Translations under genes and position numbers: made by a program
Notes under the pieces: model-generated
Told to the model about the DNA's origin: nothing
The model's input: only the letters and a program-made list of their open reading frames with translations
The model's database searches: none
From: Pegea sp. RAD2-039
Lineage: Eukaryota; Chordata; Thaliacea; Salpida; Salpidae
Assembly: GCA_034620365.1 (NCBI GenBank)
Contig: JAQGEQ010000343.1
Location: 1-64,000 of the forward strand
DNA length: 64,000 bases
Direction of reading: 5' to 3'
In this document: in pieces, positions 161 to 60,700 of the stretch
How the letters are laid out: each line of letters starts with the position of its first letter
Numbering within the stretch: position 1 is the first letter of the stretch

Positions 161-3100
161 TGGTCTTCTACCGTCCTCTTCATCTTCAAATAACAAAATC
201 GGGAAGCGCGATCCTTCTTTAGATGTTTATCTTGAAGATTTTGAATCTTGGAATTACAATATCTTTGAATTAGAAAAAATCACTTTAAAAAAGTTAGTTT
301 TTAGAATATGTCATGAAAATCTGAGGTTTTATGAAAAGTTGAAGTCTTGATCTTCATCTGATCTTCACCTAATCTTCATCTGATCTTCATCTGATCTTCT
401 CCTGATCTTCATCTGATCTTCATCTGATCTTCACCTGATCTTCATCTGATCTTCTTCATCTGATCTTCATCTAATCTTCACCTGATCTTCATCTGATCTT
501 CACTCAATCTTTATCTGATCTTCATCTGATCTTCTCCTGATCTTCATCTGATCTTTACCTGATCTTCATCTGATCTTCTTCATCTGATCTTCATCTAATC
601 TTCACCTGATCTTTATCTAATCTTCACCTGATCTTCATCTGATCTTCTTCATCTGATCTTCACCTGATCTTCACCTGATCTTCATCTAATCTTCATCTAA
701 TCTTCACCTAATCTTCATCTAATCTTCACCTGATCTTCATCTAATCTTCACCTAATCTTCATCTGATCTTCACCTGATCTTCACCTAATCTTCATCTGAT
801 CTTCATCTAATCTTCACCTGATCTTCACCTAATCTTCATCTGATCCTCTTCTGATCTTCATCTGATCTTCACCTAATCCTCATCTGATCTTCATCTGATC
901 TTCTCCTGATCTTCATATGATCTTCACCTGATCTTCATCTGATCTTCACCTAATCTTCACCTAATCTTCATCTGATCTTCATCTAATCTTCACCTGATCT
1001 TTATCTAATCTTCACCTGATCTTCACCTAATCCTCATCTGATCTTCATCTGATCTTCTCCTGATCTTCATATGATCTTCACCTGATCTTCATCTGATCTT
1101 CTTCATCTGATCTTCATCTAATCTTCACCTGATCTTCATCTAATCTTCACCTGATCTTCATCTGATCTTCTTCATCTGATCTTCATCTAATCTTCACCTG
1201 ATCTTCACCTAATCTTCATCTGATCTTCACCTAATCTTCATCTAATCTTCACCTGATCTTCATCTGATCTTCACATAATCTTCATCTGATCTTCACTTGA
1301 TCTTCACCTGATCTTCATCTGATCTTCATCTGATCTTCTCCTGATCTTCATCTGATCTTCACCTGATCTTCATCTGATCTTCATCTGATCTTCACCTGAT
1401 CTTCATCTGATCTTCTTCATCTGATCTTCACCTGATCTTCATCTGATCTTCACCTGATCTTCATCTAATCTTCATCTAATCTTCATCTGATCTTCACCTA
1501 ATCTTCATCTGATCTTCATCTAATCTTCACCTAATCTTCATCTGATCTTCATCTGATCTTCACTTGATCTTCACCTGATCTTCATCTGATCTTCACCTAA
1601 TCTTCATCTGATCTTCACCTAATCCTCATCTGATCTTCACTTGATCCTCATCTGATCTTCATCTGATCTTCTTCTTCTGAACCTCATGAAGCAAACCTCC
1701 AAATTCATCTAAACATTGATCTTCATCTTCACAGACCTTTAGTACATCTGGGACTTCATGCTCTCAACAAATTCAATGTATGTGACGTCCTTCAGTGTTC
1801 ACAGAACACATTACACGCCTGGCTAGTTGGAATCGAATCCAAATATCTATCTACAAACCCATACCACAATTCAACTCATGCTGCTGACGTATTACACGCG
1901 ACCGCTTACTTCCTCAACAAGAAACGTCTCCAAGTGAGTCTCCAACATCCAATTTCATCTTATAACCTCCATCTAGAGTTGGATGGAACCTTTAGATCAA
2001 GCAGCGATTTTACTAGCAGCAATTATTCACGATGTAGAACATCCTGGGAAGACAAATGCTTTTCTCATCAACACCAGTGACAGTTTAGCTCTGATGTACA
2101 ATGACACGTGAGTCTTTAATCTTCCCAGATCACTGATCTCTGATCCCAGCATCTTCAGAGCTGTTCTTGAGATGTATCATGCAGCCGCTGCTTTTAAATT
2201 CACTGTTAAAGATGACAACTTAAACATCTTCAAAAATATGACCAGGTGTGACGTCATCAACGATTATACATTCTGTAGTGACGTCATAGCTTCACGCTAA
2301 CATATCGTGTTTATTGACAAGCGCGCGATGCTTGTGACGTCACAAATGTTTAGAAATATGAACGAGTAGATGTTAACTCGTGTTATTAAATCGATTTATT
2401 TTTCTGTTTACTTTCAACTTGTATTTCGATGACGTCATCACTTCGATTTTGTAGAGAGAACTTTATGACGCTTCGACAATCGATTATTGATATGGTTTTA
2501 GCAACTGAACTCACGAAACATTTTGAACATGTCAATAAATTTATCAGTATCGTCACCAAAGCTCATGGAAACGCTGGATTCTTGGATCAGGTGATCTTCC
2601 TCATCTGATCCTCATCTGATCTTCACCTAATCTTCACCTGATCTTCACTTGATCTTCATCTAATCTTCACCTGATCCTCATCTGATCCTCACCTGATCTT
2701 CATCTGAGCTTCACCTAATCCTCACCTGATCTTCACCTAATCTTCATCTAATCTTCACCTCATCTTCACTTAATCTTCACCTGATCTTCACTTAATCTTC
2801 ATCTAATCTTCACCTGATCTTCTTCTGATCTTCACCTGATCTTCACTTGATCTTCACCTGATCTTCACCTGATCTTCTTCTGATCTTCACCTGATCTTCA
2901 TCTGAGCTTCACCTAATCCTCACCTGATCTTCACCTAATCTTCATCTAATCTTCACCTCATCTTCACTTAATCTTCATCTGATCTTCACCTGATCTTCAC
3001 TTAATCTTCATCTAATCTTCACCTGATCTTCACTTGATCTTCACCTGATCTTCACCTGATCTTCACTTGATCTTCATCTAATCTTCACCTGATCTTCACT

Positions 3101-3934
3101 TGATCTTCGTCTGATCTTCTTCTGATCTTCACCTCATCTTCACTTAATCTTCATCTAATCTTCATCTGATCTTCACCTGATCTTCACTTGATCTTCATCT
3201 AATCTTCACCTGATCTTCACTTGATCTTCATCTAATCTTCACCTCATCTTCACTTAATCTTCACCTCATCTTCATCTGATCTTCACCTAATCCTCACCTG
3301 ATCTTCATCTGATCTTCATCTTCAGCAGACCCCCTATCGAACTGGAAGAGCGTCTTCGAACGCGAACAGCAAGGAGACTCAAGATTTAAAGAACTTGATC
3401 AAAAGAGTGATGATAAAAGTGGCAGATGTCTGTAATCCGGTTAAGAAGAGGACTCTATGTGCGGAGTGGACCCGGAGGATTTCGGAGGAGTACTTTGCAC
3501 AGGTTTGAGATTCAACATCTTTAAATCATCTTTCAAGATTTGATCTCAGACTGATGAAGAGAAAAGATTAGGGTTGACTCCCTCGTTGCCCCTGTTCGAT
3601 CGCAACACGTGCAACCTCCCAAAGTCGCAGAGTTCATTCATCGAGTGGTTTCTTATCGATATGTGTGAAGCGTGGCACGGTGGGAGACGCGACGCGACGC
3701 GATCTTCTTCTTATCTCATTTCTTTCAGAGTTCTGTGGAATTGAAGAACTCATCGCGAATCTCCATGACAACCACAATTACTGGAAGCAACTGGAAGCTC
3801 TTGGGATCAAAAACTTGGATGATCTAGGCGACGAAATCGGGTTAGAAGATCACAACATCCGGGACACAAAAGATGAAGGAGCCGAAAGCGCTTCGACGCT
3901 CGAATCAATCGTCGAAAATCATTTAAATGAATGA
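161..3934 (+). CDS. PDE8: PDE8-type high-affinity cAMP phosphodiesterase (5'-partial)
   Basis: Cyclic-nucleotide phosphodiesterase that would hydrolyse cAMP in the cytosol; only the C-terminal catalytic part is in the window. Eight exons join in phase: 161-292, 1735-1933, 1977-2107, 2159-2245, 2455-2590, 3326-3502, 3550-3679, 3729-3934 (TGA). Visible in order: the class I PDE entry block ([10 protein letters not shown], then PLVHLGL), the metal-binding motif [14 protein letters not shown], the second metal motif [28 protein letters not shown], the HFEHVNKF helix, ADVCNP, and [19 protein letters not shown], which carries the invariant glutamine. The wording of the HNSTHAADV and YNDTAVLE blocks matches PDE8 better than other PDE families. 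REC/PAS exons would lie left of base 1; the first exon boundary (161) is inferred. Two introns are swollen by an 11-bp minisatellite. Family assignment is strong; the ohnolog (8A/8B) cannot be told. Confidence 0.93.
350..1680 (+). repeat. 11-bp minisatellite GATCTTCAYCT in PDE8 intron
   Basis: About 120 head-to-tail units of GATCTTCATCT / AATCTTCACCT and variants fill nearly the whole intron 293-1734, with some 14-bp slips (GATCTTCTTCATCT). Read in the direction of transcription each unit has a TCTGATC/TCTAATC word (branch-point-like) and a pyrimidine tract, and I see no AG inside the array. The exon acceptor (ttcacag at 1728-1734) follows directly. Confidence 0.95.
2597..3322 (+). repeat. 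11-bp minisatellite, second PDE8 array
   Basis: Same 11-bp family as the array at 350-1680, here filling the intron 2591-3325 between the exons encoding HFEHVNKF and ADVCNP. Units GATCTTCACCT, AATCTTCATCT and GATCTTCACTT are mixed. Two units carry GAGCTTC, the only AGs noticed. The last unit runs straight into the acceptor ttcag. Confidence 0.94.
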
Positions 3935-6950: not shown

Positions 6951-8630
6951 TCAAACAGCTTTACTTATCAAAACTTTAATCTGTTGATTAGAAAGGTCTT
7001 CAGAAGCTTTGATCAATCGCATAATACAGTCTACTATATGAATAGTTTGACTTGCGACATATATATGTCCGTTGTGACCAATTATTACTTCGAATTGAAA
7101 CCTAGAACCAAGCTCATTAACCAAGCAGCAGTCATCTGATAAAAGTCTTCTAGCATGATTAATCGAAACTTTAAAAGAAAAGCTAAATGATTCAGGTGGT
7201 GGGTGAATGACTCCCATACATTTATTCTGTGAAATAAAATGTCAGCTGAGTTTAAGGCTTCATCTAATTACCTTTCCGTTAGCTTGGATCACACAGGTTA
7301 TTTCTGGTTCTACGTTCTTGTCAGCAACAATTACTTTTCCGAATATCAAATCACCGATAAGAATTTTTGGTCGATTTTTTTTTGAGGCACCTTCGAACGA
7401 TAAGTTGTGAATGATCGCCTATAAAATATTTGAAATTTAGAAGCAAGTGAGTCTTCAGCACCTTCAACCACCAAGCACAAGATTTTTTTATAAGAAAAGT
7501 TATTATTGACTTGGTGTTGTTGGTCGAGGAGTTTTTACAAGTCAAGGTGCTAGAAACAAGCGAGTCCTCAGCACCTTCAACCACCAAACACAAGATTTCT
7601 TTGTAAGGCAAGTTATTATTGACTTGGTGTTGGTGGCCGAGGAGTTTTTACAAGTCAAGATGCTAGAAGCAAGTGAGTCTTCAGCACCTTCAACCACCAA
7701 ACACCAGATTTGTTTGTAAGACAAATTATTATTGACTTGGTGTTGGTGGCCGAGGAGTTTTTACAAATCAAGGTGCTAGAAGTAAGTGAGTCCTCAGCAC
7801 CTTCAACCACCAAGCACAAGATCTGTTTATAAGACAAGTTATTATTGACTTGGTGTTGGTGGTCGAGGAGTTTTTACAAGTCAAGGTGCTAGAAGCAAGT
7901 GAGTCCTCAGCACCTTCAACCACCAAGCACAAGATTTGTTTGTAAGACAAGTTATTATTGACTTGGTGTTGGTGGTCGAGGAGTTTTTACAAGTCAAGGT
8001 GCTAGAAACAAGTGAGTCTTCAGCACCTTCAACCACCAAACACAAGATTTGTTTGTAAGACAAGTTATTATTGACTTGGTGTTGTTGGTCGAGGAGTTTT
8101 TACAAGTCAAGGTGCTAGAAACAAGCGAGTCCTCAGCACCTTCAACCACCAAACACAAGATTTCTTTGTAAGGCAAGTTATTATTGACTTGGTGTTGGTG
8201 GCCGAGGAGTTTTTACAAGTCAAGATGCTAGAAGCAAGTGAGTCTTCAGCACCTTCAACCACCAAACACCAGATTTGTTTGTAAGACAAATTATTATTGA
8301 CTTGGTGTTGTTGGCCGAGGAGTTTTTACAAATCAAGATGCTAGAAACAACAATTACCTGGTCGCTACAACCAATATTTACACGAAAATAATCTCCAAGT
8401 TTTGAGGTAACAACACCAACAACATTATCTCCTTTTGTAGCTACATATCTTCTCTGTTTATAATTCACCCAGAATGTATCCTTCTTGGCACTTACTAACT
8501 GACCAGACTTTCTTACAACAACTTTATCTTTTTGATGGACCAGACCAGGTCCCAACTTTGGATGTTTCGAGAACTCTTCAATAACATCTGTGACGTCATC
8601 TCCGGGTAAAACTGATATATTTTTCCACAT
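6951..8630 (-). CDS. EXOSC3: exosome complex component RRP40 (EXOSC3)
   Basis: Non-catalytic cap subunit of the RNA exosome, which binds RNA in nucleus and cytoplasm. Three exons: 8358-8630, 7272-7418, 6951-7226, all in phase; 231 residues, close to the usual 240-275. Visible: N-terminal LPGDDV, GPGL, the S1-domain region YWV-like FWVNYKQRRYVATKGD, VVGVVTSKLGDYFRVNIG, then NLSFEGASKKNRP and IGDLIFGKVIVADKN at the S1 end, and the KH-region MGVI...EVIIGHNGHIYVASQTI. These match human EXOSC3 block for block. ATG 8630 is preferred over an in-frame non-ATG extension to 8681 because a 3' splice site lies at 8641-8642. Intron 1 contains a 113-bp tandem repeat. A 53-residue membrane protein gene lies 195 bp upstream on the same strand. 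Confidence 0.93.
7432..8350 (-). repeat. 113-bp tandem repeat in EXOSC3 intron 1
   Basis: About eight head-to-tail copies of a 113-bp unit (landmarks on the + strand: CAGCACCTTCAACCACCAA, then TTATTGACTTGGTGTTG, then GAGGAGTTTTTACAAGTC). Units are over 90% alike by eye, so the array is young. The minus strand stays open across it and gives repeated 60-residue frames, which are artefacts. Two more units sit in inverted orientation at 41855-42060. Confidence 0.93.
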
Positions 8631-10786: not shown

Positions 10787-13700
10787 CTTTGACCACGTCT
10801 GTACATGTGCTTTGACCACGTCTGTACATGTGCTTTGACCACGTCTGTACATGTGCTTTGACCACGTCTGCACATGTGCTTTGACCACGTCTGTACATGT
10901 GCTTTGACCACGTCTGTACATGTGCTTTGACCACGTCTGTACATGTGCTTTGACCATGTCTGTACATGTGCTTTGACCATGTCTGTACATGTTCTTTGAC
11001 CACGTCTGTACATGTGCTTTGACCACGTCTGTACATGTGCTTTGACCACGTCTGTACATGTGCTTTGACCACGTCTGTACATGTGCTTTGACCATGTCTG
11101 TACATGTGCTTTGACCACGTCTGTACATGTGCTTTGACCACGTCTGTACATGTGCTTTGACCATGTCTGTACATGTTCTTTGACCACGTCTGTACATGTG
11201 CTTTGACCACGTCTGTACATGTGCTTTGACCACGTCTGTACATGTGCTTTGACCACGTCTGTACATGTGATTTGACCATGTCTGTACATGTGCTTTGACC
11301 ACGTCTGTACATGTGCTTTGACCACGTCTGTACATGTGCTTTGACCATGTCTGTACATGTTCTTTGACCACGTCTGTACATGTGCTTTGACCACGTCTGT
11401 ACATGTGCTTTGACCACGTCTGTACATGTGCTTTGACCACGTCTGTACATGTGCTTTGACCACGTCTGTACATGTGCTTTGACCACGTCTGTACATGTGC
11501 TTTGACCACGTCTGTACATGTGCTTTGACCACGTCTGTACATGTGCTTTGACCACGTCTGTACATGTGCTTTGACCACGTCTGTACATGTGCTTTGACCA
11601 CGTCTGTACATGTGCTTTGACCACGTCTGTACATGTGCTTTGACCATGTCTGTACATGTGCTTTGACCACGTCTGTACATGTACTTTGACCATGTCTGTA
11701 CATGTGCTTTGAGCACGTCTGTACATACTGGGTCTTTTCTTTTAAAATTGATAAAATCTCCTACTTTGACCACGTCTGTACATGTGCTTTGACCACGTCT
11801 GTACATGTACTTTGACCACGTCTGTACATGTGCTTTGACCACGTCTGCACATGTGCTTTGACCACGTCTGTACATATTGGGTCTTTTCTTTTAAAATTGA
11901 TAAAATCTCCTACTTTGACCACGTCTGTACATGTGCTTTGACCACGTCTGTACATGTGCTTTGACCACGTCTGTACATGTACTTTGACCACGTCTGTACA
12001 TGTGCTTTGACCATGTCTATAGATGTACTTTGACCACGTCTGTAGATGTGCTTTGACCACGTCTGTACATGTGCTTTGATCACGTCTGTACATGTGCTTT
12101 GACCACGTCTGTACATGTGCTTTGACCACGTCTGTACATGTGCTTTGACCACGTCTGTACATGTGCTTTGACCACGTCTGTGCATGTGCTTTGACCATGT
12201 CTATAGATGTACTTTGACCACGTCTGTACATGTGCTTTGACCACGTCTGTACATGTGCTTTGACCACGTCTGTACATGTGCTTTAACCACGTCTGTACAT
12301 GTACTTTTACCACGTCTGTACATGTGCTTTGACCACGTCTGTACATGTGCTTTGACCACGTCTGTACATGTGCTTTGACCACGTCTGTACATGTACTTTG
12401 ACCATGTCTATAGATGTGCTTTGACCACGTCTGTACATGTGCTTTGACCACGTCTGTACATGTTCTTTGACCACGTCTGTACATGTGCTTTGACCATGTC
12501 TGTACATGTGCTTTGACCATGTCTGTACATGTGCTTTGACCACGTCTGTACATGTGCTTTGACCACGTCTGTACATGTGCTTTGACCACGTCTGTACATG
12601 TACTTTGACCATGTCTATAGATGTGCTTTGACCACGTCTGTACATGTGCTTTGACCACGTCTGTACATGTTCTTTGACCACGTCTGTACATGTGCTTTGA
12701 CCATGTCTGTACATGTGCTTTGACCATGTCTGTACATGTACTTTTACCACGTCTGTACATGTGCTTTGACCACGTCTGTACATGTTCTTTGACCACGTCT
12801 GTACATGTGCTTTGACCACGTCTGTACATGTACTTTGACCATGTCTATAGATGTGCTTTGACCACGTCTGTACATGTGCTTTGACCACGTCTGTACATGT
12901 ACTTTGACCATGTCTGTACATGTGCTTTGACCATGTCTGTACATGTGCTTTGACCACGTCTGTACATGTACTTTGACCATGTCTATAGATGTGCTTTGAC
13001 CACGTCTGTACATGTGCTTTGACCACGTCTGTACATGTGCTTTGACCACGTCTGTAGATGTGCTTTGACCACATCTGTACATGTTCTTTGACCATGTCTG
13101 TACATGTGCTTTGACCACGTCTGTACATGTGCTTTGACCACGTCTGTACATGTGCTTTGACCACGTCTGTACATGTGCTTTGACCATGTCTGTACATGTG
13201 CTTTGACCATGTCTGTACATGTTCTTTGACCACGTCTGTACATGTGCTTTGACCACGTCTGTACATGTGCTTTGACCACGTCTGTACATGTGCTTTGACC
13301 ACGTCTGTACATGTGCTTTGACCATGTCTGTACATGTGCTTTGACCACGTCTGTACATGTGCTTTGACCACGTCTGTACATGTGCTTTGACCATGTCTGT
13401 ACATGTTCTTTGACCACGTCTGTACATGTGCTTTGACCACGTCTGTACATGTGCTTTGACCACGTCTGTACATGTGCTTTGACCACGTCTGTACATGTGC
13501 TTTAACCACGTCTGTACATGTACTTTTACCACGTCTGTACATGTGCTTTGACCACGTCTGTACATGTGCTTTGACCACGTCTGTACATGTGCTTTGACCA
13601 CGTCTGTACATGTACTTTGACCATGTCTATAGATGTGCTTTGACCACGTCTGTACATGTGCTTTGACCACGTCTGTACATGTGCTTTGACCACGTCTGTA

Positions 13701-14346
13701 GATGTGCTTTGACCACATCTGTACATGTTCTTTGACCATGTCTGTACATGTGCTTTGACCACGTCTGTACATGTGCTTTGACCACGTCTGTACATGTGCT
13801 TTGACCACGTCTGTACATGTGCTTTGACCACGTCTGTACATGTGCTTTGACCACGTCTGTACATGTGCTTTGACCATGTCTGTACATGTGCTTTGACCAT
13901 GTCTGTACATGTGCTTTGACCACGTCTGTACATGTGCTTTGACCACGTCTGTACATGTGCTTTGACCACGTCTGTACATGTGCTTTGACCACGTCTGTAC
14001 ATGTGCTTTGACCACGTCTGTACATGTGCTTTGACCACGTCTATACATGTACTTTGACCACGTCTGTACATGTGCTTTGACCACGTCTGTACATGTACTT
14101 TGACCACGTCTGTACATGTGCTTTGACCACGTCTATACATGTGCTTTGACCACGTCTGTACATGTGCTTTGACCATGTCTATAGATGTGCTTTGACCACG
14201 TCTGTAGATGTGCTTTGACCACGTCTATACATGTACTTTGACCACGTCTGTACATGTGCTTTGACCACGTCTGTACATGTGCTTTTACCACGTCTGTACA
14301 TGTGCTTTGACCACGTCTGCACATGTGCTTTGACCACGTCTGTACA
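10787..14346. repeat. 23-bp satellite array, about 150 units
   Basis: Head-to-tail units of TTTGACCACGTCTGTACATG + TGC (23 bp) over 3.5 kb. Because 23 is not a multiple of 3 and the minus strand lacks stops, all three minus frames stay open for 300-457 codons with a 23-residue period; these are not proteins. Variants (CATGTC for CACGTC, TATAGATG for TGTACATG, TTC or TAC for the final TGC) recur in blocks, for example around 12403-12640 and 13605-13740, showing duplication of multi-unit segments. It lies between the 5' side of the small membrane protein gene and the 3' end of ST7. Confidence 0.95.
11724..11912. repeat. array-flank sequence duplicated inside the 23-bp satellite
   Basis: A 38-bp phrase (GGGTCTTTTCTTTTAAAATT + GATAAAAT) interrupts the array at 11727-11762 and 11877-11912 and also forms its right border at 14350-14378. 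Border sequence has therefore been copied into the array, by unequal exchange or segment duplication. Confidence 0.85.
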
Positions 14347-14379
14347 TATTGGGTCTTTTCTTTTAAAATTGATAAAATT

Positions 14380-15013: not shown

Positions 15014-18000
15014 TCAAACCTCAGCTGTTGTTTTTGCACAAAATATCATCGAATCAGGATACTGATGTGTTAGAACAGCTATGAGAGCTGTTATCGTGCA
15101 AACACAAGCAACTATCACGATATAAAGAGGCCATTCTTTTTTAGGATATACAGAAACGTAATGGAAAGCTGGCAAGTAATAAAGCTGTTAATTTATTAAA
15201 TTATTTATCAATTGATTATTATTATATAAAGTATAAACTTAATAAATATTTGATAATTATTCAAAAGTTACTAATATTACGAAATACAAATGAGGTAAAA
15301 ATAAGTTGTTTGTAAAACAATTATTCGGTAATAACATAATATAAATTAAATATTTGATAAGATAACAAATACATGATAAAAGTACATTATAATTATTATA
15401 TTATTTATATATAAAGAGAAATTTTAAACCAGTTACTTCAACACAAAACCCAAAAACAAAATAACAAATTTCATCAATTATCAACAACCAACCAGCAACA
15501 CCAACTAGCAACAACCACTAGAAACACCAACTAGCAACACCAACTAGCAACAACCACTAGCAACACCAACTAGCAACAACCACTAGCAACAACCAACTAG
15601 CAACAACCACTAGCAACACCAACTAGCAACAACCACTAGCAACACCAACTAGCAACAACCACTAGCAACACCAACTAGCAACAACCACTAGCAACAACCA
15701 ACTAGCAACAACCACTAGCAACACCAACTAGCAACAACCACTAGCAACACCAACTAGCAACAACCACTAGCAACACCAACTAGCAACAACCACTAGCAAC
15801 AACCAACTAGCAACAACCACTAGCAACAACCAACTAGCAACAACCACTAGCAACAACCAACTAGCAACAACCACTAGCAACACCAACTAGCAACAACCAC
15901 TAGCAACACCAACCAGCAACAACCAACTAGCAACCAGCAACAATAACTAGCAACCAGCAACAATCAATTAGCAACCAGCAACAATCAATTAGCAAATAGC
16001 AACACCACTAACAACCAGCAACAACCAACCAGCAACACCAACTAGCAAAAACCACTAGCAACAACCAACTAGCAACCAGCAACAACAATTAGCAACCAGC
16101 AACACCAACTAGCAACCAGCAACAACCAACTAGCAACAACCACTAGCAACCAGCAACAATCAATTAGCAACCAGCAACAACCAATTAGAAACCAGCAACA
16201 ACCAACTAGCAACAACAATTAGCAACCAGCAACTAGCAACAACAACTAGCAACCAGCAACAACCAACTAGGAACCAGCAACAACCAACTAGCAACCAGCA
16301 ACACCAACTAGCAACAACCAACTAGCAACACCAACCAGCAACAACCATTAGCAACTAGCAACCAGCCAAATAGAAACAAGTGGTTACCAGGTAGCAGTTC
16401 TCTGTCAGCACTCTCAGTACAATTAGGATAAGGATAGAACAAGTTGCCCTTTTCAAGTGGGTAGGGAATCATACGAAATGCTGGAAAGAAATCTTTATGA
16501 AAAAAAATTAAAATTTAAGAAGAATTGAAGATAGAAATCAACTTACTTCCCTCCCAAGTGCAATGTAATAAGTTAATTGCTCCATTAACGTGCTTCCAAT
16601 GTGGTAGATGATAAAAGGAATAAGCAATTGCTTCAGAATCTCCACGTTTCAAGATGTGCTCAGGTGGTAAGATTAAGCTCTTCATTTCAAGAAGATACTA
16701 GAAGATGAAGATACACAAGACACTAAATAGGAAGATTTTGAAGATTACCTTTGGTGTATGAGGATTAAACTCAACAGCGCGATGTATTGCTTCAACTGCA
16801 CTTAATTCTGCTGAAGATAAACCCCTTTTATTAGCAACTTCACGAGAAAACTTATCACAGACAGATCTCGATTTTAAAAGAGCAGCTGTGTAACAAATAG
16901 TTGCTGATTTTGGTAAACTGATATCTAAAAAAGACAAGTTTTAGATTGATAAATTCATATTTGAACAACTAACCATCGTATTTATGTAATAGAGCTTGTA
17001 CATCTGCATACGCTTGGATTTCTAGTAAAGCTTCCATTAAATTCTCGTGGATATTCAACATATTCATCAACGGGAACTCTTTCATTAACTAAAAACCAAC
17101 TTTAAATTATTTAAACTTTTATGAAAAGATACTCACGTCTCTCATCATTTTAATTGCTTCCCGAGTCCGTCCTAATTTCCGTGTACACATCGCTAAACGC
17201 CGTTTGATGTATACCAAGACATTAGTATCACGACCTATAAAATGTAGTTGAACCATTTTGTTAAAAAGCCAGAATTGTCCTCACGATGTTCAGCTTCTAA
17301 CACTGGGTTGTGGTGTTGTAAAATTTGACTTTTTCTGTATAAAACTTCACCACATTTCAAAGCTTTTCTGAATAAACGTTCAGCCTGGAATTAGAGGAAT
17401 TATAAAACTTAATTTTCTTTTTATTCAACTTGAAAAAAGTAAAAATTAGTGATTTGGTTGAATAAAAACAGTTTGTTACTAACTTTACAAGTTGTTTAAA
17501 ATCCATCTTATGATGTAAATAACAACAAATACATCTAAAATAGATAAATGATAAAAAGAATGATGAAAACAAACACTACCTCTAATATAGTTGTTGCTTC
17601 TTCTTCTGCTAGCAAGATATAACCAGCTGCACATCTAGAAAATAATTTATAATTTTATGAATGAGTTTATTTGATAATTACTCTGAATCTTCTTTAAGAG
17701 CTTGATGAGCGGCACGGATGCGAGCTTGCGGGTTCCGTTCTCTCCACGCTTTCTGCATGACTATCAAAATGGTTTTATGGTGATGTAGATGATATACAAC
17801 TTACTATTATCAGATAAACGCAAATGATCTGATTCACTTGTAAAATAAGTTTGATGGTCTTGCGCTGATAAATTCATATCATAAAAAGTTAAAGGTTCTT
17901 GACCAGTAACCCACTGATATCTGAACAAGATCAGATTACAGAATGATTTTAATGATTTCAGTAACTTACCGATTATATTCTGACCCTCTTAACAAATTTA

Positions 18001-21843: not shown

Positions 21844-24800
21844 ATGGATATTTCATCTTCACTCAATTGTATTGCTTCTGAAGATTTTAATCATCATCTT
21901 GATGATGAGGAGTATTGTGATCTCACAATTGATGATATAAACATCGATTTACAACCAAGTCAAGGGTCTACAACTATATCTGAAGACAATTTAATTGAAG
22001 ATATACAAAAGGTATACTTTGTCGTTTAAGGTATTTATAATTATAATTTGGTAGAAAGTATTTAGATATTTATATTTAAAATTAATTATTTAATTTTTAT
22101 TTGTTTGATTTTAACTAAAATTAATTTATTTTGAAGTGATTTATTACTTTGCTTATATAAATTATTTATATTTATATAAATTTATTTATTAATGATTAAT
22201 TAATTGTAGTTTTATTTTGAAAGTAATCTTGGAATTGTTTTTTTATAATTTCAAATTATTAAAACATTTATTTGCTTCAGTTAAATATTAAATTTGTCTT
22301 TTTATTGTTTCAAATTATTCAAAATTTTCAGACTTTATTTGAAATTTGAAATTAAATAAAAATTTAAATCGAAATTTCATAGGTTCAACCATTCAGTAAA
22401 GAACAAGTCAGATGGTTTTACGTAAGCGGCACAAAAAAAAACAAACCAAATCCGATGATAGGATGTGATTCAATTCGAGTTGAGGAGGCTTATCAAGTTT
22501 ATCTTCAAAATCCTTCAAATTTTGATGAAAAAATCTGTATCAGAGGAGGATTATATGAAGTAAATTTTGCTGATAAATGCTGCTACCCAATTTATTGGAG
22601 TAATATCAACGATATTGGTGATTGTCTCATACGTGGCACTTGGTTCTATGATAATTGGTTGCCATTAGCAACAGAAAACGCGACAGTAATTGAAAATGAG
22701 CATCAAGCTAGATGGAAAGGATATGACATCAACCTTATAAAAGTAATAGAAATAAAGTTTTGATTTAAATTGAAATTTTGGTTTAAAACAGGAATTAATG
22801 AATAATAAAGTAATGCACAGTGTCCAATTGAAAGATTTTCATGTGGAATGGACGAGCGTTACTGACGTCATCCTTTACAAAGACGCGACAGCTCATCGAG
22901 CGATTAGAAACATCGGTCAACGAATTGGAGTTTCAAAAGTAATTTTTCAAAATCTCAATTTTTTCAATCAGCTGATTTTTTTTTGGCTCACAGGCGACAT
23001 CTAGTGGCTATCGTTTACATAGAGGATATAAACATATAGCTGATCCTTGTGAAGATTTCGCCCCTGTTTCCAACCTCATCTTTGTAATCCATGGTATTGG
23101 AGCTCGTGGGGATCGGTTAGTTGGGTTTTTTGTGGGATTATTTCACTAAGTTTATGTAGAAGGAAGGTAGCAAGAAATACAAACGAATTTCGGGGACTTT
23201 GTCGAAAATTTGAAGATGAAAAAGATGAGTTAAATCGATCTATTTATATTCCAGTAGAATGGAGATCTCGTTTGAAATTAAATGAAGATCTAATCGCTTC
23301 TATAACTCCGAATAAAGTTTGTTCAACTTTTCAAATTTTAAAACCACGTGACAAAAATAACTTCTGATGAGTCAATTAAATAATTGATGAATCATCAAAA
23401 ACTCAGATATTAGTCTCATCTGATGTCTTTGGTGACTTCAAGATGACTTTTAATTTATTAAATTGAAGTGAAAAGTTGAAATTATTCATTAACTCAGGGA
23501 TTAAGTATACGAAGACTTCTACACAACACAGCACTTGATATCATGTATTACACAAGCTACAAATATCGAAATGAAGTTGTAAATGGTTTAAGAGCTGAAT
23601 TAAATCGAGTCTTTAACATCTTCATCAGTCGAAATCCAACTTTCAGTGGGAAGGTGATCCCTATTATCTTTCGAGATCTTTATTTAATCTTCATCTGATC
23701 TTCACCTAATCTTCATCTGATCTTCATCTTTATTTTCACCTAATCTTCTTCTGGTCTTCATCTAATCTTCATCTGATCTTCTGATCTTCTTCTGATCTTC
23801 ACCTGGTCTTCATCTAATCTTCATCTGATCTTCACCTAATCTTCATCTAATCTTCATCTGATCTTCTTCATCTGATCTTCACCTAATCTTCATCTGATCT
23901 TCACCTCATCTTCACTTAATCTTCATCTAATCTTCATCTGATCTTCATCTGATCTTCACCTAATCTTCATCTAATCTTCATCTGATCTTCTTCATCTGAT
24001 CTTCACCTAATCTTCATCTGATCTTCACCTCATCTTCATCTAATCTTCATCTAATCTTCACCTAATCTTCATCTAATCTTCATCTGATTTTCACTTAATT
24101 TTCATCTAATCTTCTTCTGATCTTCATCTGATCTTCATCTACAGATCAGTGTCTTTGCACATTCACTCGGAAACATCATCATCCACGACATCTTGACTAA
24201 ATGGAAACCAGATGACTGTGATCTTAATGTAAGTCTTCATCCAAATCTTCACAAATCTTATTTTGATCTTCATCAGCCGGTTAAATCATCAAATCTTGAA
24301 TCTTCATCTGATCCCAGTTTATCTTTTGAGATCGATAATCTTTTCAGTTTGGGATCACCTCTTGGGATCTTCTTCTGCCTCCGAGGACATCATCCTGATG
24401 GAGATTATCAAAAGATTCTACCTCCGCATTGCAGGTGACACTTCAATTTGATCTTCATCAATCTTATGAAGACTTTTACAGAAGGATCTTCAATATTTAT
24501 CACCCAGCAGACCCAGTTGCTTACAGACTTGAACCTCTGATTTATGAACATTACACCAATGTTAAACCTGTCCAGGTATCTTTGTGATCTTTGTCTGATC
24601 TTCACTTGATCTTCACCTGATTCTCATCTGATCTTCTTTATCTAATCTTCACCTAATCTTTATCTAATCTTCTCCTGATCTTTACTTGACCTTCATCTGA
24701 TCTTCTTTATATAATCTTCACTTAATCTTCATCTAATCTTCTTCTTCATCTAATCTTCATCTAATCTTCATCTGATCTTTACCTGATCCTCATCTAATCT

Positions 24801-25962
24801 TCTCCTGATCTTCAATACATCTTCATCTGATCTTCATATAATCTTCACCTAATCTTCACCTAATCTTCACCTGATCTTCATCTGATCTTCACCTGATCTT
24901 CATCTAATCTTCACCTGATCTTCATCTGATCTTCTCCTGATCTTCATCTGATCTTCACCTGATCTTCATCTGATCTTCACCTGATCTTCATCTAATCTTC
25001 ACCTGATCTTCATCTGATCTTCTCCTGATCTTCATCTGATCTTCATCTGATCTTCACCTGATCTTCATCTGATCTTCATCTGATCTTCACCTGATCTTCA
25101 TCTGATCTTCACCTGATCTTCACCTGATCTTCATCTGATCTTCACCTGATCTTCATCTAATCTTCATCTAATCTTCATCTGATCTTCACCTAATCTTCAC
25201 CTGATCTTCTTTACCTGATCCTCATCTGATCTTCACCTGATCTTCATCTGATCTTCACCTGATCTTCATCTAATCTTCACCTGATCTTCATCTAATCTTC
25301 ACCTGATCTTCATCTGATCTTCATCTGATCTTCACCTAATCTTCACCTGATCTTCTTTACCTGATCCTCATCTGATCTTCACCTGATCTTCATCTGATCT
25401 TCACTTGATCTTCATCTGATCTTCACCTAATCTTCACCTAATCTTCACCTGATCTTCACCTAATCTTCATCTGATCTTCATCTTCTCAGATTGAATCAGT
25501 TTATGAAATAAACAAGAACAAACTCACTACGGAAGTTGAAGAAGCTGCAAGTGTGTCTTCAAAGATCAACCCAGCACCGGATGTTGACAACGAAGTTTAC
25601 GAGACACCAAACAAGTCCTCATATCTCAGGTAAGATCCAAAAAAGTTGTCTTCATCATCTAAATCTTCATCAACAGGAGTGTAACTGGAGGAGCTTTTAG
25701 ACTTGGTAGTCGATTGTTTAATCGTTCATCAACTCAAGAAAAAACAGAATCAAACAACTCAAGTTTCGATTCAGTTGATCCTGTTCTAACTGAAAATCAG
25801 TTGGACTCATCAACTCATCGACTCCTTCCATTTCGACTTGATTATGTCCTTCATGAGAGCTTTACTGAGAGTAAACTCGGTTATGCATCTTTTACTTCAC
25901 ATACATCTTATTGGAGGAACCAAGATTTAGCTCTCTTCATCACGAAACAACTCAATGAATGA
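21844..25962 (+). CDS. DDHD1: DDHD1-type intracellular phospholipase A1 (PA-PLA1)
   Basis: Lipase of the intracellular PLA1 family, expected to cleave phosphatidic acid and related lipids at membranes. Eleven exons, phases agree, 623 residues: 21844-22011, 22383-22742, 22792-22938, 22994-23115, 23160-23316, 23498-23653, 24145-24228, 24277-24434, 24482-24575, 25490-25629, 25677-25962. Visible: WWE-like N-terminal region (VRWFYVSGT, CIRGGLYEVNFADKCCYPIY, IRGTWFYDNWLPL), SGYRLHRGY, LIFVIHGIGARGDR, IPVEWRSRL, ITPNK, DIMYYTS, the catalytic serine motif FAHSLGNIIIHD (AHSLG for the usual SHSLG), and the DDHD domain with FSLGSPLGIFFCLRG, FNIYHPADPVAYRLEPL and RLDYVLHESF...SHTSYW. Shorter than human DDHD1 mainly at the N-terminus and in the spacer. 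Introns 6 and 9 carry 11-bp minisatellites. Confidence 0.95.
23683..24140 (+). repeat. 11-bp minisatellite in DDHD1 intron 6
   Basis: Same family as in PDE8 (GATCTTCATCT / AATCTTCACCT), same orientation relative to transcription, no internal AG noticed; ends in the acceptor ctacag before the exon encoding AHSLG. Confidence 0.94.
24590..25486 (+). repeat. 11-bp minisatellite in DDHD1 intron 9
   Basis: Roughly 80 units of the same family fill the intron 24576-25489. Higher-order runs (ATCT-ACCT-ATCT-TCCT patterns) recur, for example 24883-25010 and 24985-25100. Ends in tcttctcag. Confidence 0.94.
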
Positions 25963-33959: not shown

Positions 33960-44689
<10,730 letters not shown>

Positions 44690-50445: not shown

Positions 50446-53400
50446 TTATGGATAAATTTCTTCAGTGTAATAACGTGAGATTGTATCAGCGTCATAATCT
50501 TCAGCTAAAGACACGAAAATTTAATGATTTTTTAACAAAGTTTTGAACCAACTTACGAAAATGACAGTTCCAAGCCCATATCCGACTACCATCATATTGC
50601 AAATTACAATAAACTTGATTATTACTAAAATCACTTTCAGCAACTAGTTTATGAGGATTAACATGAACCTAAAAAAACATCTCATTAAAACCTCTTAGAT
50701 CTTCATCACTTACTTACTCTTAAAAGGTAGTTCCCCGGTTTCACGTCGGTTATATCAATCCATTGACAGTCGATACTGTATCTAAAAACAAACAAAATCG
50801 CATAGCAACCAAGTCACGCTTATTCGGTTTCCTGCTTAGCAACGCTTCACTAACCACGTGCGCACATACACACGCGCATAGCAACCACGTGTGTGACGTC
50901 ATCACAACTTACCGGTAGTTGTCAGCGCAACCAACAGCAATTCCTTGTTCGCCACCGGAAGGTGAATCACAATCGAATCGCGCTTCGACTCCTGGAGAAC
51001 ATTCGCTGTCCTCCAAACAGAAGCTCGCTTTGTGTCCTTCGGCGACGCGCGAGAAATTAAGGTTCAGGATGTCGTAGTGAGTGAACTCATCCATACTATG
51101 ATAGTGGCTGAAAAAATTTGTGTCTTTAACACCATATAAGGAGATGATGAAGATTACCGATGACATTGATGCCAAATCCATTGATTCTTACTCTTCGCGG
51201 GTTTAAAATCCGCTTTTCCGCGATTCCAAACACGCGAAGAGAACCGAACCAATCTACGCGATCCGTACGGCCAATCAGCGTCATCTGCTGACGGCGAAAG
51301 ACATCCTTCTTCATCTAGAGACATACGCGATTGATGACGTCATAGTAGTACGCGAGAAGTAGCTTACGCGAGCAGTAGAGATAGCTAAGAGCGCGATCAT
51401 CAAGATGAAGAGAATGTTGCATCAGCGGGATGTCAGTGACTAGATCCGGAGCATCTGAAGATGACGTCATCAGTCGAGAAGCGATCTATGATGTCATCGA
51501 GTCTTACTATATGCGCACATTACGCCAGCTAGTGGCGGCTTTGCTCTTCCTTCTCCGCAAGTCTGAGGAATGACATCACGTTGACATTCTTGTAAACTCG
51601 TCTCGTCTCCGCGACACTTGACTCCCGTCATCACTACTTCTGTAAGCTCCGAAGGAAAGTAGATGACATCCTGGAAGATCAGAAGATCAGAAAAAGATCA
51701 GAAGAAGATCAGAAGAAGATCAGAAGAAGATCAGAAGAAGATTAGAAGAAGATCAGAAGAAGATCAGAAGAAGATCAGAAGAAGATCAGAAGAAGATCAG
51801 AAGAAGATCAGAAGAAGATCAGAAGAAGATCAGAAGAAGATCAGAAGAAGATCAGAAGAAGATCAGAAGAAGATCAGAAGAAGATCAGAAGAAGATCAGA
51901 AGAAGATCAGAAGAAGATCAGAAGAAGATCAGAAGAAGATCAGAAGAAGATCAGAAGAAGATCAGAAGAAGATCAGAAGAAGATCAGAAGAAGATCAGAA
52001 GAAGATCAGAAGAAGATCAGAAGAAGATCAGAAGAAGATCAGAAGAAGATCAAGATGAAGATTAAGATGAAGATTAAGATGAAGATCAAGATCAAGATGA
52101 AGATGAAGAAGAAGATGAAGATCAGGAAGATGAAGATCAGGAGAAGATAAAGATCAGGAAGAACATCAAGATCAAGAGAAGATGAAGATCAGGAAGATCA
52201 AGATCAAGATGAAGATCAGGAGAAGATCAAGATCATGAAGATGAGGATCAAGATCATGAAGATGAAGATCAGGAAGAGTTGGTCCTTACTTTTAGGGCAT
52301 ATGCAGCAAATCCAAATCCGAGTTGTTTACAGGCAACAATAGCTTCCATCACGCCCCAATTATCACTACAAACTAAACCCCATTTCTTCTTAACTCTCAC
52401 TTCAACTACTCCTTCTTCCTGAAGTCTACCTCCAGCTAACTTGATCTGAAAACAAGAAGACATCAAGATCTAATCTCTAAAGATCTTAATCTACTTTTTC
52501 ATCCAGTCTCAACTCAGGGACTCTACAGATCACTCCACTTTCTTCACCATGAGAACACTCAGGGTCACTACCAGACGCCCCACCTTCTTCGTTCATAGTG
52601 ACGTGATAATCGCGCGAATATGACAATGGGTCCTGATCACAATCACTCAATTTCGACTCGTTACCATGACAAGTCATATTAGTGACCCAAATCGGGCCGT
52701 GACCTACACAACATCTTAAAAATGGACCACAACTTTTGGCAAGACCTAACCTTCTCCAAAGCCGGAATTTTTGACCGCTCTTTTAGCGGTCCCGAAACCC
52801 ATCTCACGACAAGCCACACTAGCGTCCTTTAAGTCCCATTCTGTGTGGCAAACAGTCCCCCAGCGCCCAAAACGGAGTATTTCTATCCGGCCCTCCCCGA
52901 CATTTGATCCAGCGCGAACCCGCGTATTTACTGTGGACTAAAAACCAAAAAATCAAAAACCAGACCACAAAAAGTGGTCCGCAAACCTTAAAAGTATTCG
53001 GGACAGTCCCAAATGGTCTGTCAGGGTCATCATTAACTTCATACTTTCTCATATGAGTGTTGAAAGTGAAACCAGTCTGACAGCGGACCACAAGTGGTGA
53101 CCCTTGACAGGCTTCATGGTCATGAGAGTCCAGGACAGCGTAGTCACAGTTACCAATGACGGTCTCTTTTCCAGTACATGTGACGTTACCCATGACGTAA
53201 GCAAGCTTCTTGCGGCCCTCTTTAGCGCTACAAGCGGATGTTCAGTGGAGCGGAACAAATGCATCGAACTCACAGATAAGTAGTGACGTCATCAACCGCT
53301 TGACCATCAGGAAAGCCCAACTGTCCACAAGTTACGTAAGCAATCTTGGATAAGTCCTGGCCCTCATTTACACAAACTTTCCTCCATTTTTTACCTTCTT

Positions 53401-54788: not shown

Positions 54789-57700
54789 ATGAGCGCTTCA
54801 TGTTTTAATGGTATAGACGTTTCAATAACTGTCATTATTCTACAATTTCTGGCAAGTTTTTTTCAATTTGTAGCAGCTACATATTTAGGTTATAAATGGT
54901 TCACTAAACAGTCTGTAGAAAGTTTGAAAAGTCTGTATACTGCATTGTTTTTACTTTCTATGTTCATTACTTCATTAATAAACGGAATAATTTTCACGAA
55001 ACTGAGAAAGGTTTGTTTAAAATAAAGTTTTTTGAAATTTTAATCTTGTTTTAATATTTTAAATTAGAATAAATTGATAAATAAAAGTTTTTAGGAAACA
55101 TTTTAAGGAAAAAATAAAAACAATTTTTATAAAAAACAATTTTTAAAAGTATTTAAAAATAAAAGTAATTATCAAAATTTAGTAAAAATGAATTTAAAAT
55201 GTTTGAATTTAAATTTGGCAACACATTTTTTTTACAAATATTCTAAAAATTTGTTGAATTTCAAAAATTTTTTCAATTTTTTTCAATTTTTTTCGAAACA
55301 CAACTTTCTGTAAAAACCACAAAATTAGAAAAAATTAAATAATTTTAATTAAATTTATCGAATAAACAGAATAAACTGATTATAAATAAACTTGTAAAAT
55401 TTAGAAAAATATTTACTTTGAAAATAAAGCAGTTTATATTCAAAGTTTACAATTATGACTTTTATAATTTTTTAGTTTAAATTTTATTAATTTAGGAAGC
55501 ATTAGACGAAGAGACGTTCACATCTACAGTCTTATTTCATCTAGGAACTGCTTTCAGATTATTTTATTTCGTTTTCTTATCACTTATGTTGAAAAGCTAT
55601 GTAAGTATGAAACCTACAAAATTCTAACTCTAGTTAAATTGGTTTAAATACTTTAGAACCTAATATTTTGAATAATTAAGTTTATACTTATATAACTTCA
55701 AATATTTAACTTACAAAACCTTAGAGAGAAAATATTTTATATTTAGATAAATTTAAATTATTATTCTTTAAAATGAATTTCTTTAGCTACAAAACAGTTC
55801 AAATTATAGACAGAAAATTTTCGAATTTTGAATGTCGAATTTTGAATTTTGAATGTCGAGTTTTGAATTTTGAATGTCGAATTTTAAATTTTGAATTTCG
55901 AATTTTGAATGTCAAATTTTGAATTTCGAATTTCGAATTTCGAGTTTTAAATTTTGAATGTCGAATTTTAAATTTTGAATTTCGAATTTTGAATGTCAAA
56001 TTTTGAATTTCGAATTTTGAATGTCGAGTTTTGAATGTCGAATTTTGAATTGTATTTTTAAAAGTATTTAGGGTTTAATTTTATAATAAATTTGACGTGT
56101 AAGCTTAATACTTTGAGGACTACTGAAATGTCATGTGTTACATCTTTTGCTTTTATATTTTTGACTAAATGGATGTTATTTGTGAGAATGTGTGTTAGCG
56201 AGAGGTGCTCTCTTCAGGCACCCTCCTTCGCATTTATTGTAATAAATAAGATAAACACTATTTATGTCAATCTATTTGCTGTTATCAGCTGATATTATTG
56301 TTGTTAATAATTTAAAATTATAAATTTAAGTTGCAACAAGAGAAAGTAAAGACAAGCAAACTCGTTAAAGTTTCTGTTTTTATTGTAACTCTTGGATTAG
56401 GAGTGGCTCTTATAATAAGAACTATAATAAAGATAACAGATTTACCAACAACAGATGATTTCATCTTACAAGACGCGGCCTTTATAGTCGGTAAGATTCC
56501 ATCTACTAGCAGAAGACCAGTTTAATGTTTTTGTTTCAGCATCTTTCCTTACGGGGTTTTCTATTTTCTGGGTTGGCTTCAAATCTCCTTCTAATGTTTC
56601 CAAAAGTAAAAAAAGTAAATGAAGTTTTTGGAACTGAAAATTTTTTACAATTTCAAAAAATATTTTAAAAATTAGGAAAACAAAGTATAGAAAACGTTGA
56701 TAGAAATCAGGAACAAAATACAAGAAGACGAAAAAGTAAAATTAAAAGAATGAAATATATCCTAAACCGAAGAGACCTTTTAGTACCAGGATTAAATTTT
56801 ATAGGAATGGCTGCTCTCAGTAAGTAGATTATTTTGCCGCTTACGTAAATGTCTCAGTTGTTAACTGTTGTTAATACTGTTAATACTGTTGTTTGTGTTT
56901 ACTGTTGTTTGTGTTAACTGTTGTTTGTGTTTACTGTTGTTTGTGTTTACTGTTGTTTGTGTTTACTGTTGTTTGTGTTTACTGTTGTTTGTGTTTACTG
57001 TTGTTTGTGTTGAGTGTTGTTTGTGTTTACTGTTGTTTGTGTTTGCTGTTGTTTATGTTTACTGTTGTTTGTCTTTACTGTTGTTTGTGTTTACTGTTGT
57101 TTGTGTTTACTGTTGTTTGTGTTTACTGTTGTTTGTGTTTACTGTTGTTTGTGTTTACTGTTGTTTGTGTTTACTGTTGTTTGTGTTTACTGTTGTTTGT
57201 GTTTACTGTTGTTTGTGTTTACTGTTGTTTGTGTTTACTGTTGTTTGTGTTTACTGTTGTTTGTGTTTACTGTTGTTTGTGTTTACTGTTGTTTGTGTTT
57301 ACTGTTGTTTGTGTTTACTGTTGTTTGTGTTTACTGTTGTTTGTGTTTACTGTTGTTTGTGTTGAGTGTTGTTTGTGTTTACTGTTGTTTGTGTTTGCTG
57401 TTGTTTATGTTTACTGTTGTTTGTCTTTACTGTTGTTTGTGTTTACTGTTGTTTGTGTTGAGTGTTGTTTGTGTTTACTGTTGTTTGTGTTTACTGTTGT
57501 TTGTGTTTACTGTTGTTTGTGTTTATTGTTGTTTGTGTTTACTGTTGTTTGTGTTGAGTGTTGTTTGTGTTTAATGTTGTTTGTGTTTACTGTTGTTTGT
57601 GTTTGCTGTTGTTTGTGTTTACTGTTGTTTGTGTTTACTGTTGTTTGTGTTTACTGTTGTTTGTCTTTACTGTTGTTTGTGTTTATTGTTGTTTGTGTTT

Positions 57701-60700
57701 ACTGTTGTTTGTGTTTATTGTTGTTTGTGTTTACTGTTGTTGGTGTTTACTGTTGTTTATGTTTACTGTTGTTTGTGTTTACTGTTGTTTGTGTTTACTG
57801 TTGTTTGTGTTTACTGTTGTTTGTGTTTACTGTTGTTTGTGTTTACTGTTGTTTGTGTTTACTGTTGTTTGTGTTTACTGTTGTTTGTGTTTATTGTTGT
57901 TTGTGTTTGCTGTCGTTTGTGTTTATTGTTGTTTGTGTTTACTGTTGTTGGTGTTTACTGTTGTTTATGTTTACTGTTGTTTGTGTTTACTGTTGTTTGT
58001 GTTTACTGTTGTTTGTGTTTATTGTTGTTTGTGTTTACTGTTGTTTGTGTTTGCTGTCGTTTGTGTTTATTGTTGTTTGTGTTTACTGTTGTTGGTGTTT
58101 ATTGTTGTTTGTGTTTACTGTTGTTGGTGTTTACTGTTGTTTATGTTTACTGTTGTTTGTGTTTACTGTTGTTTGTGTTTATTGTTGTTTGTGTTTATTG
58201 TTGTTTGTGTTTACTGTTGTTTGTGTTTGCTGTCGTTTGTGTTTATTGTTGTTTGTGTTTACTGTTGTTTGTCTTTACTGTTGTTTGTGTTTATTGTTGT
58301 ATGTGTTTACAGTTGTTTGTGTTTACTGTTGTTTGCGTTTACTGTTGTTTGTGCTTACTGTTGTTTGTGTTTACTGTTGTTTGTGTTTACTGTTGTTTAT
58401 GTTTACTGTTGTTTGTGTTTACTGTTGTTTATGTTTACTGTTGTTTGTGTTTACTGTTGTTTATGTTTACTGTTGTTTGTGTTTACTGTTGTTTGTGTTT
58501 ACTGTTGTTTGTGTTTACTGTTGTTTATGTTTACTGTTGTTTGTGTTTACTGTTGTTTGCGTTTACTGTTGTTTGTGTAAACTGTTGTTTGTGTTTACTG
58601 TTGTTTGTGTTTACTGTTGTTTATGTTTACAGTTGTTTGTGTTTACTGTTGTTTGTGTTTATTGTTGTTTGTGTTTACAGTTGTTTGTGTTTACTGTTGT
58701 TTGTGTTTACTGTTCTTTGTGTTTACTGTTGTTTGTGTTTACTGTTGTTTGTGTTTACTGTTGTTTGTGTTTACTGTTGTTTGTGTTTACAGTTGTTTGT
58801 GTTTATTGTTGTTTGTGTTTACTGTTGTTTGTGTTTACTGTTGTTTGTGTTTACTGTTGTTTGTGTTTACTGTTGTTTGTGTTTACTGTTGTTTGTGTTG
58901 ACTGTTGTTTGTGTTTATTGTTGTCTGTGTTTGCTGTTGTTTGTGTTTACTGTTGTTTGTGTTTACTGTTGTTTGTGTTTACTGTTGCTTGTGTTTACTG
59001 TTGTTTATGTTTACTGTTGTTTGTGTTTACTGTTGTTTGTGTTTACTGTTGTTTGTGTTTACTGTTGCTTGTGTTTACTGTTGTTTATGTTTACTGTTGT
59101 TTGTGTTTACTGTTGTTTGTGTTTACTGTTGTTTGTGTTTACTGTTGTTTATGTTTACTGTTGTTTGTGTTTACTGTTGTTTGTGTTTACTGTTGTTTGT
59201 GTTTACTGTTGTTTGTGTTTACTGTTGTTTGTGTTTACTGTTGTTTGTGTTTACTGTTGTTTGTGTTTACTGTTGTTTGTGTTTACTGTTGTTTGTGTTT
59301 ACAGTTGTTTGTTTGTGTTTACTGTTTTTTGTGTTTACTGTTGTTTGTGTTTACTGTTGTTTGTGTTTACTGTTGTTTGTGCTTACTGTTGTTTGTGTTT
59401 ACAGTTGTTTGTCTTTACTGTTGTTTGTGTTTACTGTTGTTTGCGTTTACTGTTGTTTGTGTTTGCAGTTGTTTGTGTTTACTGTTGTTTGTGTTTACTG
59501 TTGTTTGTGTTTACTGTTGTTTGTGTTTACTGTTGTTTGTGTTTATTGTTGTTTGTGTTTACAGTTGTTTGTGTTTACTTGTTTGTGTTTATTGTTGTTT
59601 GTGTTTACTGTTGTTTGTGTTTGTTTTACTGTTGTTTATGTTTACTGTTGTTTGTGTTTACTGTTGTTTGTGTTTACTGTTGTTTGTGTTTACTGTTGTT
59701 TGTGTTTACTTGTTTGTGTTTACTGTTGTTTTATGTTTTTGTGTTTACTGTTGTTTGTGTTTACTGTTGTTTGTGTTTACTGTTGTTTGTGTTTACTGTT
59801 GTTTGTGTTTACTGTTTTTTGTGTTTACTGTTGTTTGTGTTTACTGTTGTTTGTGTTTACTGTTGTTTGTGCTTACTGTTGTTTGTGTTTACAGTTGTTT
59901 GTCTTTACTGTTGTTTGTGTTTACTGTTGTTTGCGTTTACTGTTGTTTGTGTAAACTGTTGTTTGTGTTTACTTTTGTTTGGGTTTACTGTTGTTTGTGT
60001 TTATTGTTGTTTGTGTTTACTTTTTTTTGTGTTTACTGTTGTTTGTGTTGAGTGTTGTTTGTGTTTACTGTTGTTTGTGTTTACTGTTGTTTGGGTTTAC
60101 TGTTGTTTGTGTTTACTGTTGTTTGTGTTTACTGTTGTTTGTGTTTACTGTTGTTTGTGTTTACTGTTGTTTGTGTTTACTGTTGTTTGGGTTTACTGTT
60201 GTTTGTGTTTACTGTTGTTTGTGCTTACTGTTGTTTGTGTTTACAGTTGTTTGTCTTTACTGTTGTTTGTGTTTACTGTTGTTTGCGTTTACTGTTGTTT
60301 GTGTTTACAGTTGTTTGTGTTTACTGTTGTTTGTGTTTACTGTTGTTTGTGTTTACTGTTGTTTGTGTTTACTGTTGTTTGTGTTTACTGTTGTTTGTGT
60401 TTACTGTTGTTTGTGTTTACTGTTGTTTGTGTTTACTGTTGTTTGTGTTTATTGTTGTTTGTGTTTACTGTTGTTTGTGTTTATTGTTGTTTGTGTTTAC
60501 TGTTGTTGGTGTTTACTGTTGTTTATGTTTACTGTTGTTTGTGTTTACTGTTGTTTGTGTTTACTGTTGTTTGTGTTTACTGTTGTTTGTGTTTGCTGTT
60601 GTTTGTGTTTACTGTTGTTTGTGTTTACTGTTGTTTGTGTTTACTGTTGTTTGTGTTTACTGTTGTTTGTGTTTACTGTTGTTTGTGTTTACTGTTGTTT

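Follow-up and report, generated by a model that had tools for sequence, protein, structure and literature searches.

Why do the tandem arrays of an 11-bp unit, GATCTTCNYCT, lie inside introns in this stretch of DNA, and why do they all read the same way along the transcript? The window, that is, the whole stretch analysed, covers the opening 64 kb of contig C247, which has 621,894 bases. A preliminary description had noticed five arrays there, each placed within an intron, with the sense strand reading GATCTTC whichever DNA strand carries the gene. Both observations are borne out by hand reading and by the Pfam matches of the host genes (PDEase_I, DDHD and SRCR/lysyl-oxidase), four arrays lying in plus-strand genes and one in a minus-strand gene; the arrays are real and the repeat extends outside the window. 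TRF reports the 11-bp arrays at 348-1675, 2601-3318, 23675-25483 and 51681-52229, the third being a single row over two arrays plus the intervening exons (Table 1).

Pfam scores for the hosts are 111.2 bits for PDEase_I, 136.8 bits for DDHD and, with exons joined across the array intron 51671..52289, 78.2 bits for SRCR and 27.2 bits for Lysyl_oxidase. The names PDE8, DDHD1 and LOXL given previously are supported as families, the exact orthologues going beyond what Pfam supports. The gene model, which combines typical splice sites with 26 long open frames taken from random loci and from the window, describes animal-like genes with many introns near 50 nt. Since it errs in the window, where it merges the two DDHD arrays into one intron, misses an acceptor of the lysyl-oxidase gene and splits a PDE exon, the window introns were read by hand. 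Exon 223-292, upstream of intron 293..1734, lies outside the Pfam domain and comes from the gene model only.

Table 1. Array introns, arrays and single units in the window (positions in the window; strand of the gene)
Feature	Position	Strand	Remarks
PDEase_I gene intron, 11-bp array inside	293..1734	+	AG-free run 1,345 nt; hand reading
11-bp array, ~119 copies, PDEase_I gene	348..1675	+	sense 0 AG, 0 GT
Acceptor with its own single unit TTGATCTTCATCTTCACAG, PDEase_I gene	1716..1734	+	direct reading
Second PDEase_I intron	2591..3325	+	donor GTGATCTTCC, acceptor GATCTTCATCTTCAG
11-bp array, ~65 copies, second PDEase_I intron	2601..3318	+	sense 2 AG, in GAGCTTC
DDHD gene intron, array 23675-24140	23654..24144	+	acceptor GATCTTCATCTACAG
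48-nt DDHD intron, one unit at acceptor (TTGATCTTCATCAG, 24263-24276)	24229..24276	+	
47-nt DDHD intron, one unit 30 nt from end, AG in between	24435..24481	+	
DDHD gene intron, array ~24590-25483	~24576..25489	+	911 nt before acceptor without AG
SRCR/lysyl-oxidase gene intron, within SRCR domain	51671..52289	-	612 nt AG-free before acceptor
11-bp array, ~49 copies, SRCR/lysyl-oxidase gene	51681..52229	-	sense GATCTTCTTCT, 0 AG

The window carries other repeats as well. By-eye comparison places a 113-bp repeat at 7438-8350 and 41855-42059 in opposite orientations. A 23-bp array of ~155 copies (10787-14347) has long open frames on the minus strand, and a 16-bp array of ~296 copies spanning 4.7 kb (56884-61597) leaves the plus strand open for more than 1,000 codons. 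There is also a (TTA)64 run at 37377-37568. On the minus strand, the introns 43243-43299 and 44221-44277, each of 57 nt, are identical, which suggests a probable recent local duplication.

How far does the family reach? Throughout the genome searched (105.7 Mb, 387 contigs), the 22-mer made of two GATCTTCNYCT units gave 489 + 527 matches, and its reversed control 0 + 0. These exact matches of the 11-bp pair total 1,016; a 14-bp pair was matched 849 times and a 17-bp pattern 490 times, each reversed control giving 0, and a looser end-of-array pattern was found at 60 places against 31 for its reversed control, itself C/T-rich. The 11-bp pair was absent from 13 random 10-kb stretches, one of which (L016) has a (CTT)n-like array with no TRATC. 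A family array is present in 27 of the 31 further loci fetched by pattern; L032, L040 and L047 hold a single 22-mer only and L038 a different repeat. The antisense 22-mers of L032 and L038 were rejected as arrays, since they fall within coding exons or straddle an exon edge (KDEDQ, LEDEDV).

Among fetched loci TRF finds periods of 11, 14, 15, 17, 31 and 51 plus higher-order units, all with a common grammar of TRATC plus C/T runs; one triplet separates periods 11, 14 and 17. Copy number, period and host genes differ widely. At least two arrays occur in one gene or locus for PDEase_I, DDHD, L023, L029, L037 and L044, and these imperfect tandem arrays in introns, often several per gene, amount to local intronic repeat expansion. 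Array loci are GC-richer outside the repeats than random loci (37.6% vs 27.5%). They also contain 115 copies of the strongly over-represented palindrome TGACGTCA in 74.8 kb, where 0.8 would be expected; the window has 21 (0.5 expected), and random loci have 12 over 130 kb (0.8 expected). On another contig (G000:C50:553767-608055), five plus-strand array clusters follow one another with gaps of 12.9-13.8 kb among the matches listed, as a tandemly duplicated gene sharing one array intron would give.

The orientation found in the window holds outside it: the main array is sense to the best gene model in 27/27 array loci, which represent 26 independent loci because L035 and L043 are paralogues (97.2% identity over 1,811 bp, in one assembly). 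A Pfam match above cut-off backs that strand in 15 of the 27 (L022, L024, L025, L026, L027, L028, L033, L034, L037, L039, L044, L045, L048, L049 and L051); left out of these 15 are L041, where the only match is a reverse transcriptase, and L001, which is below cut-off. Near the L041 array lies an RVT_1 fragment (36.6 bits), and the array's host gene is therefore uncertain. Because a preference of the acceptor model for pyrimidines might bias the calls towards sense, splice preferences were removed as a control; 21 of the 27 loci then agree, 4 tie and 2 disagree (L033 and L035), the strand of L033 being settled by its 7tm domain in Pfam. Neighbouring clusters offer a measure free of gene calls: those at most 2.4 kb apart share their strand in 12/12 pairs among the matches listed, two of these pairs being from the window and some possibly one interrupted array. 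Within the same matches listed, the strand is shared by 6/6 pairs at 3-20 kb and 6/24 beyond 20 kb. One extra array, L031:1-256, runs opposite to its nearest gene, past the stop codon of that gene, which need not be its host. Arrays in antisense or between genes, which the preliminary description had named as evidence against it, were not equally common in the loci read, a minority of the genome-wide copies. In introns without arrays, sense pyrimidine tracts exceed purine tracts (12 vs 3 and 6 vs 2).

What does this orientation give to the transcript? Over the 3,955 bp of window arrays there are 2 AG in sense vs 767 in antisense (in coordinate order 0, 2, 0, 0 and 0 vs 248, 133, 85, 166 and 135), and both sense AG are those of two GAGCTTC units, as had been noticed. 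Across family arrays AG per 100 nt is 0-1.1 in sense and 12-27 in antisense. The longest AG-free run has a median of 465 and a maximum of 1,345 nt in 28 array-intron rows, which include L038, L043 and one merged DDHD row; for 87 other introns of at least 100 nt these values are 54 and 186 nt. At least 150 nt without AG lie directly upstream of the acceptor in 16 of the 28 rows, which places them among long AG exclusion zones, and in the hand-read window introns this stretch measures 417, 467, 911 and 612 nt, the fifth having 41 nt. Scarcity of AG beyond composition, the expectation behind a proposed shuffling of the units, did not appear: equally few AG are obtained in 16-25% of letter re-orderings for four arrays and in 79% for the fifth. 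Nor was there a signal of AG purging within 806 units, where 7 of ~93 single substitutions could create AG. AG-freeness is partly a by-product of a C/T-rich strand lying in sense; it is the orientation that is the significant and strong fact.

Some intronic arrays unrelated to the family contain AG, at 7.6 per 100 in L030:2206-2430, 4.6 in L038 and 5.4 at window 15475-16366, and others are AG-free. In L038:985-1436, an intronic 22-bp array, each unit has TTGATC, a C-rich run and CAG in sense; this unit is a repeated complete 3′ splice-site-like module, counter to the AG-free rule. The window array 15475-16366 has a 26-bp unit, lies in an intron of a minus-strand gene matching Pfam ST7 (800.9 bits), and contains both AG and GT in sense.

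The arrays often span from a few bases past the donor to a few bases before the acceptor, and units reach both sites in the intron ends compared. The last unit had been taken as the 3′ end of the intron, and four of the five window arrays do reach to within 10 nt of the acceptor; the array 348..1675 ends 59 nt short of an acceptor that has a unit of its own. The last YTRAY lies at a normal distance from the intron end, with a median of 15 nt in array and short introns alike and quartiles of 11-21 nt in array introns, a spacing that differs from that of distant-branch-point exons.

The reading of the unit as branch point plus pyrimidine tract is weaker than the claims on location and orientation. 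The YTRAY class does peak in 164 short introns at 7-17 nt from their end, where it was counted 65 times and a scrambled motif 26 times, and YTRAY motifs are mildly enriched near the 3′ end of 189 ordinary introns. CTGAT is not, being seen 12 times 9-24 nt from the end of these 189 introns vs 14.1 expected, so that it is no commoner there than in the part lying further upstream, which goes against CTGAT as a positioned branch point. A derivation of the unit from a native 3′ splice-site module stands in part, one- or two-unit versions occurring in some ~48-nt introns (L040, L034, L032) without the module being common natively. The same is true of the single unit said to precede the acceptor in two short DDHD introns, found in the 48-nt one and displaced from the end in the 47-nt one (Table 1). 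In short introns of random loci RATCTTC shows no excess (2 sense vs 2 antisense), whereas in non-array short introns of array loci it is found 19 times in sense vs 3 in antisense, and the excess therefore seems to be a property of the gene or region. The sequence TRATCTTCATCTTCAG occurs 35 times in the genome and its control once.

We put at about an even chance that the arrays are local expansions of splice-compatible intron sequence, whose orientation is kept since the antisense is AG- and purine-rich. They would be local tandem expansions of sequence to which the splicing machinery is indifferent. Each transcribed unit would present a TRATC resembling a branch point, together with a short stretch of pyrimidines and almost no AG or GT, and because of this near-absence a gain or loss of units would create neither a new acceptor nor a new donor. 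From any of the branch points, the first downstream AG would be the true acceptor, with a unit ~15 nt upstream. Purine-rich sequence is exon-enhancer-like. A reversed array would bring such sequence into the intron together with the antisense density of AG given above; antisense arrays would be lost, and the proposal is that the remaining ones are therefore in gene sense. Growth by slippage or unequal exchange, the purging of antisense arrays and the use of repeated branch points are steps that we infer. Sense-facing splice-site-like units may allow introns to grow without upsetting splicing. A fuller version, to which we give a rather low probability, is that complete AG-free branch-point-plus-pyrimidine modules would enlarge introns up to ~30-fold, with tens of interchangeable putative branch points for one acceptor. 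If this were true, lariat branch points would be dispersed and intron length would drift freely, added units being silent to splicing.

The main rival to local expansion with selection against antisense is an orientation inherited from pyrimidine tracts, which explains much of the same data. Slippage would start from the C/T-rich pyrimidine tract of the intron itself, sense being passed on with no need of selection against antisense. The sequence left outside the array is shorter towards the acceptor, with a median of 8 nt, than towards the donor, with 21 nt (n=27, Wilcoxon p=0.02, motif-run measure), acceptors of ~48-nt introns bear the one- and two-unit versions, and RATCTTC is in sense excess in the other short introns of array loci. 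However, the sign test on the same flanks is borderline (19/27, p=0.05), the array is nearer the acceptor in 7 of the 11 introns that have 60 nt or more beyond it, and the unit is not in excess in random genes. This origin bias alone appears possible but somewhat doubtful.

C/T-rich arrays are possible binding sites of pyrimidine-binding proteins. A regulatory role in splicing, where the arrays might serve such proteins as platforms or tune splicing through many alternative branch points, would fit the regular spacing of TRATC and of C/T runs over several periods; in human, more alternative splicing accompanies AG-exclusion zones that are long, according to the available text of PMC1431707. 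The wide variation of copy number, period and host genes argues against such a function, which we consider unlikely. Transcription could also set the orientation, if purine-rich transcripts formed stable RNA:DNA hybrids or triplexes blocking elongation, so that only arrays with pyrimidine sense persisted. The sense strand is strongly C/T-rich (T 0.47, C 0.30) and the units look like interrupted TTC/ATC triplet runs, but the homopurine strand is broken by TRA interruptions; the explanation predicts the same orientation as the splicing account and seems to us quite improbable. Least probable is a repeat that makes new introns, its unit needing a single change to become a donor (CTRATC to GTRATC) or an acceptor. 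Several introns are all array from GT to AG, with the unit-like donors GTAATCTTC, GTGATCTTC and GTTTGATCTTC, whereas other array introns retain ~50-480 nt of unique sequence and an ordinary GTAAG or GTGAG donor.

The arrays combine, in a new form, intronic repeat expansion with long AG-exclusion zones. Like human AG exclusion zones and distant-branch-point exons, they keep a long region upstream of the acceptor free of AG; in the accessible part of Gooding et al. 2006, zones of at least 150 nt are reported in 165 of 67,334 human introns, with 381 nt in PTB, 438 nt in nPTB and 590 nt in Fugu PTB, and the first AG past the branch point is used (PMC1431707). Human zones are rare, shorter and usually served by one distant branch point (PMC1431707), whereas here the zone is made by a tandem array, up to ~0.9 kb before the acceptor and 1,345 nt AG-free inside one intron. 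The arrays are not distant-branch-point exons, because the branch-point candidate lies at a normal distance. In ‘sequence stuttering’ of chicken dot chromosomes, local imperfect tandem repeats likewise enlarge introns, several per gene and in GC-richer genes, but there the repeated sequence is often that of an exon border with its splice sites, and the available portion of the article gives no common motif or strand rule (PMC12954441). Here, one motif grammar and one orientation are common to unrelated genes. Purifying selection against spurious AG in pyrimidine tracts, as far as the accessible text describes it, also yields a strand asymmetry through avoidance of AG in sense; it concerns the base composition of Drosophila short introns, unlike the kilobase-scale arrays here (PMC10946897). 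Among the titles and abstracts listed by searches of PubMed Central, no description of sense-oriented branch-point-like intronic arrays was found.

The arrays represent a natural experiment on permissible intron content, in which a common repeat grammar has spread to unrelated genes by the tens, with a single orientation in the loci read. If branch points prove to be dispersed along the arrays, these introns would show directly what number of them a single intron may contain, over what distance the spliceosome scans for AG (up to ~0.9 kb here) and how introns can be lengthened harmlessly.
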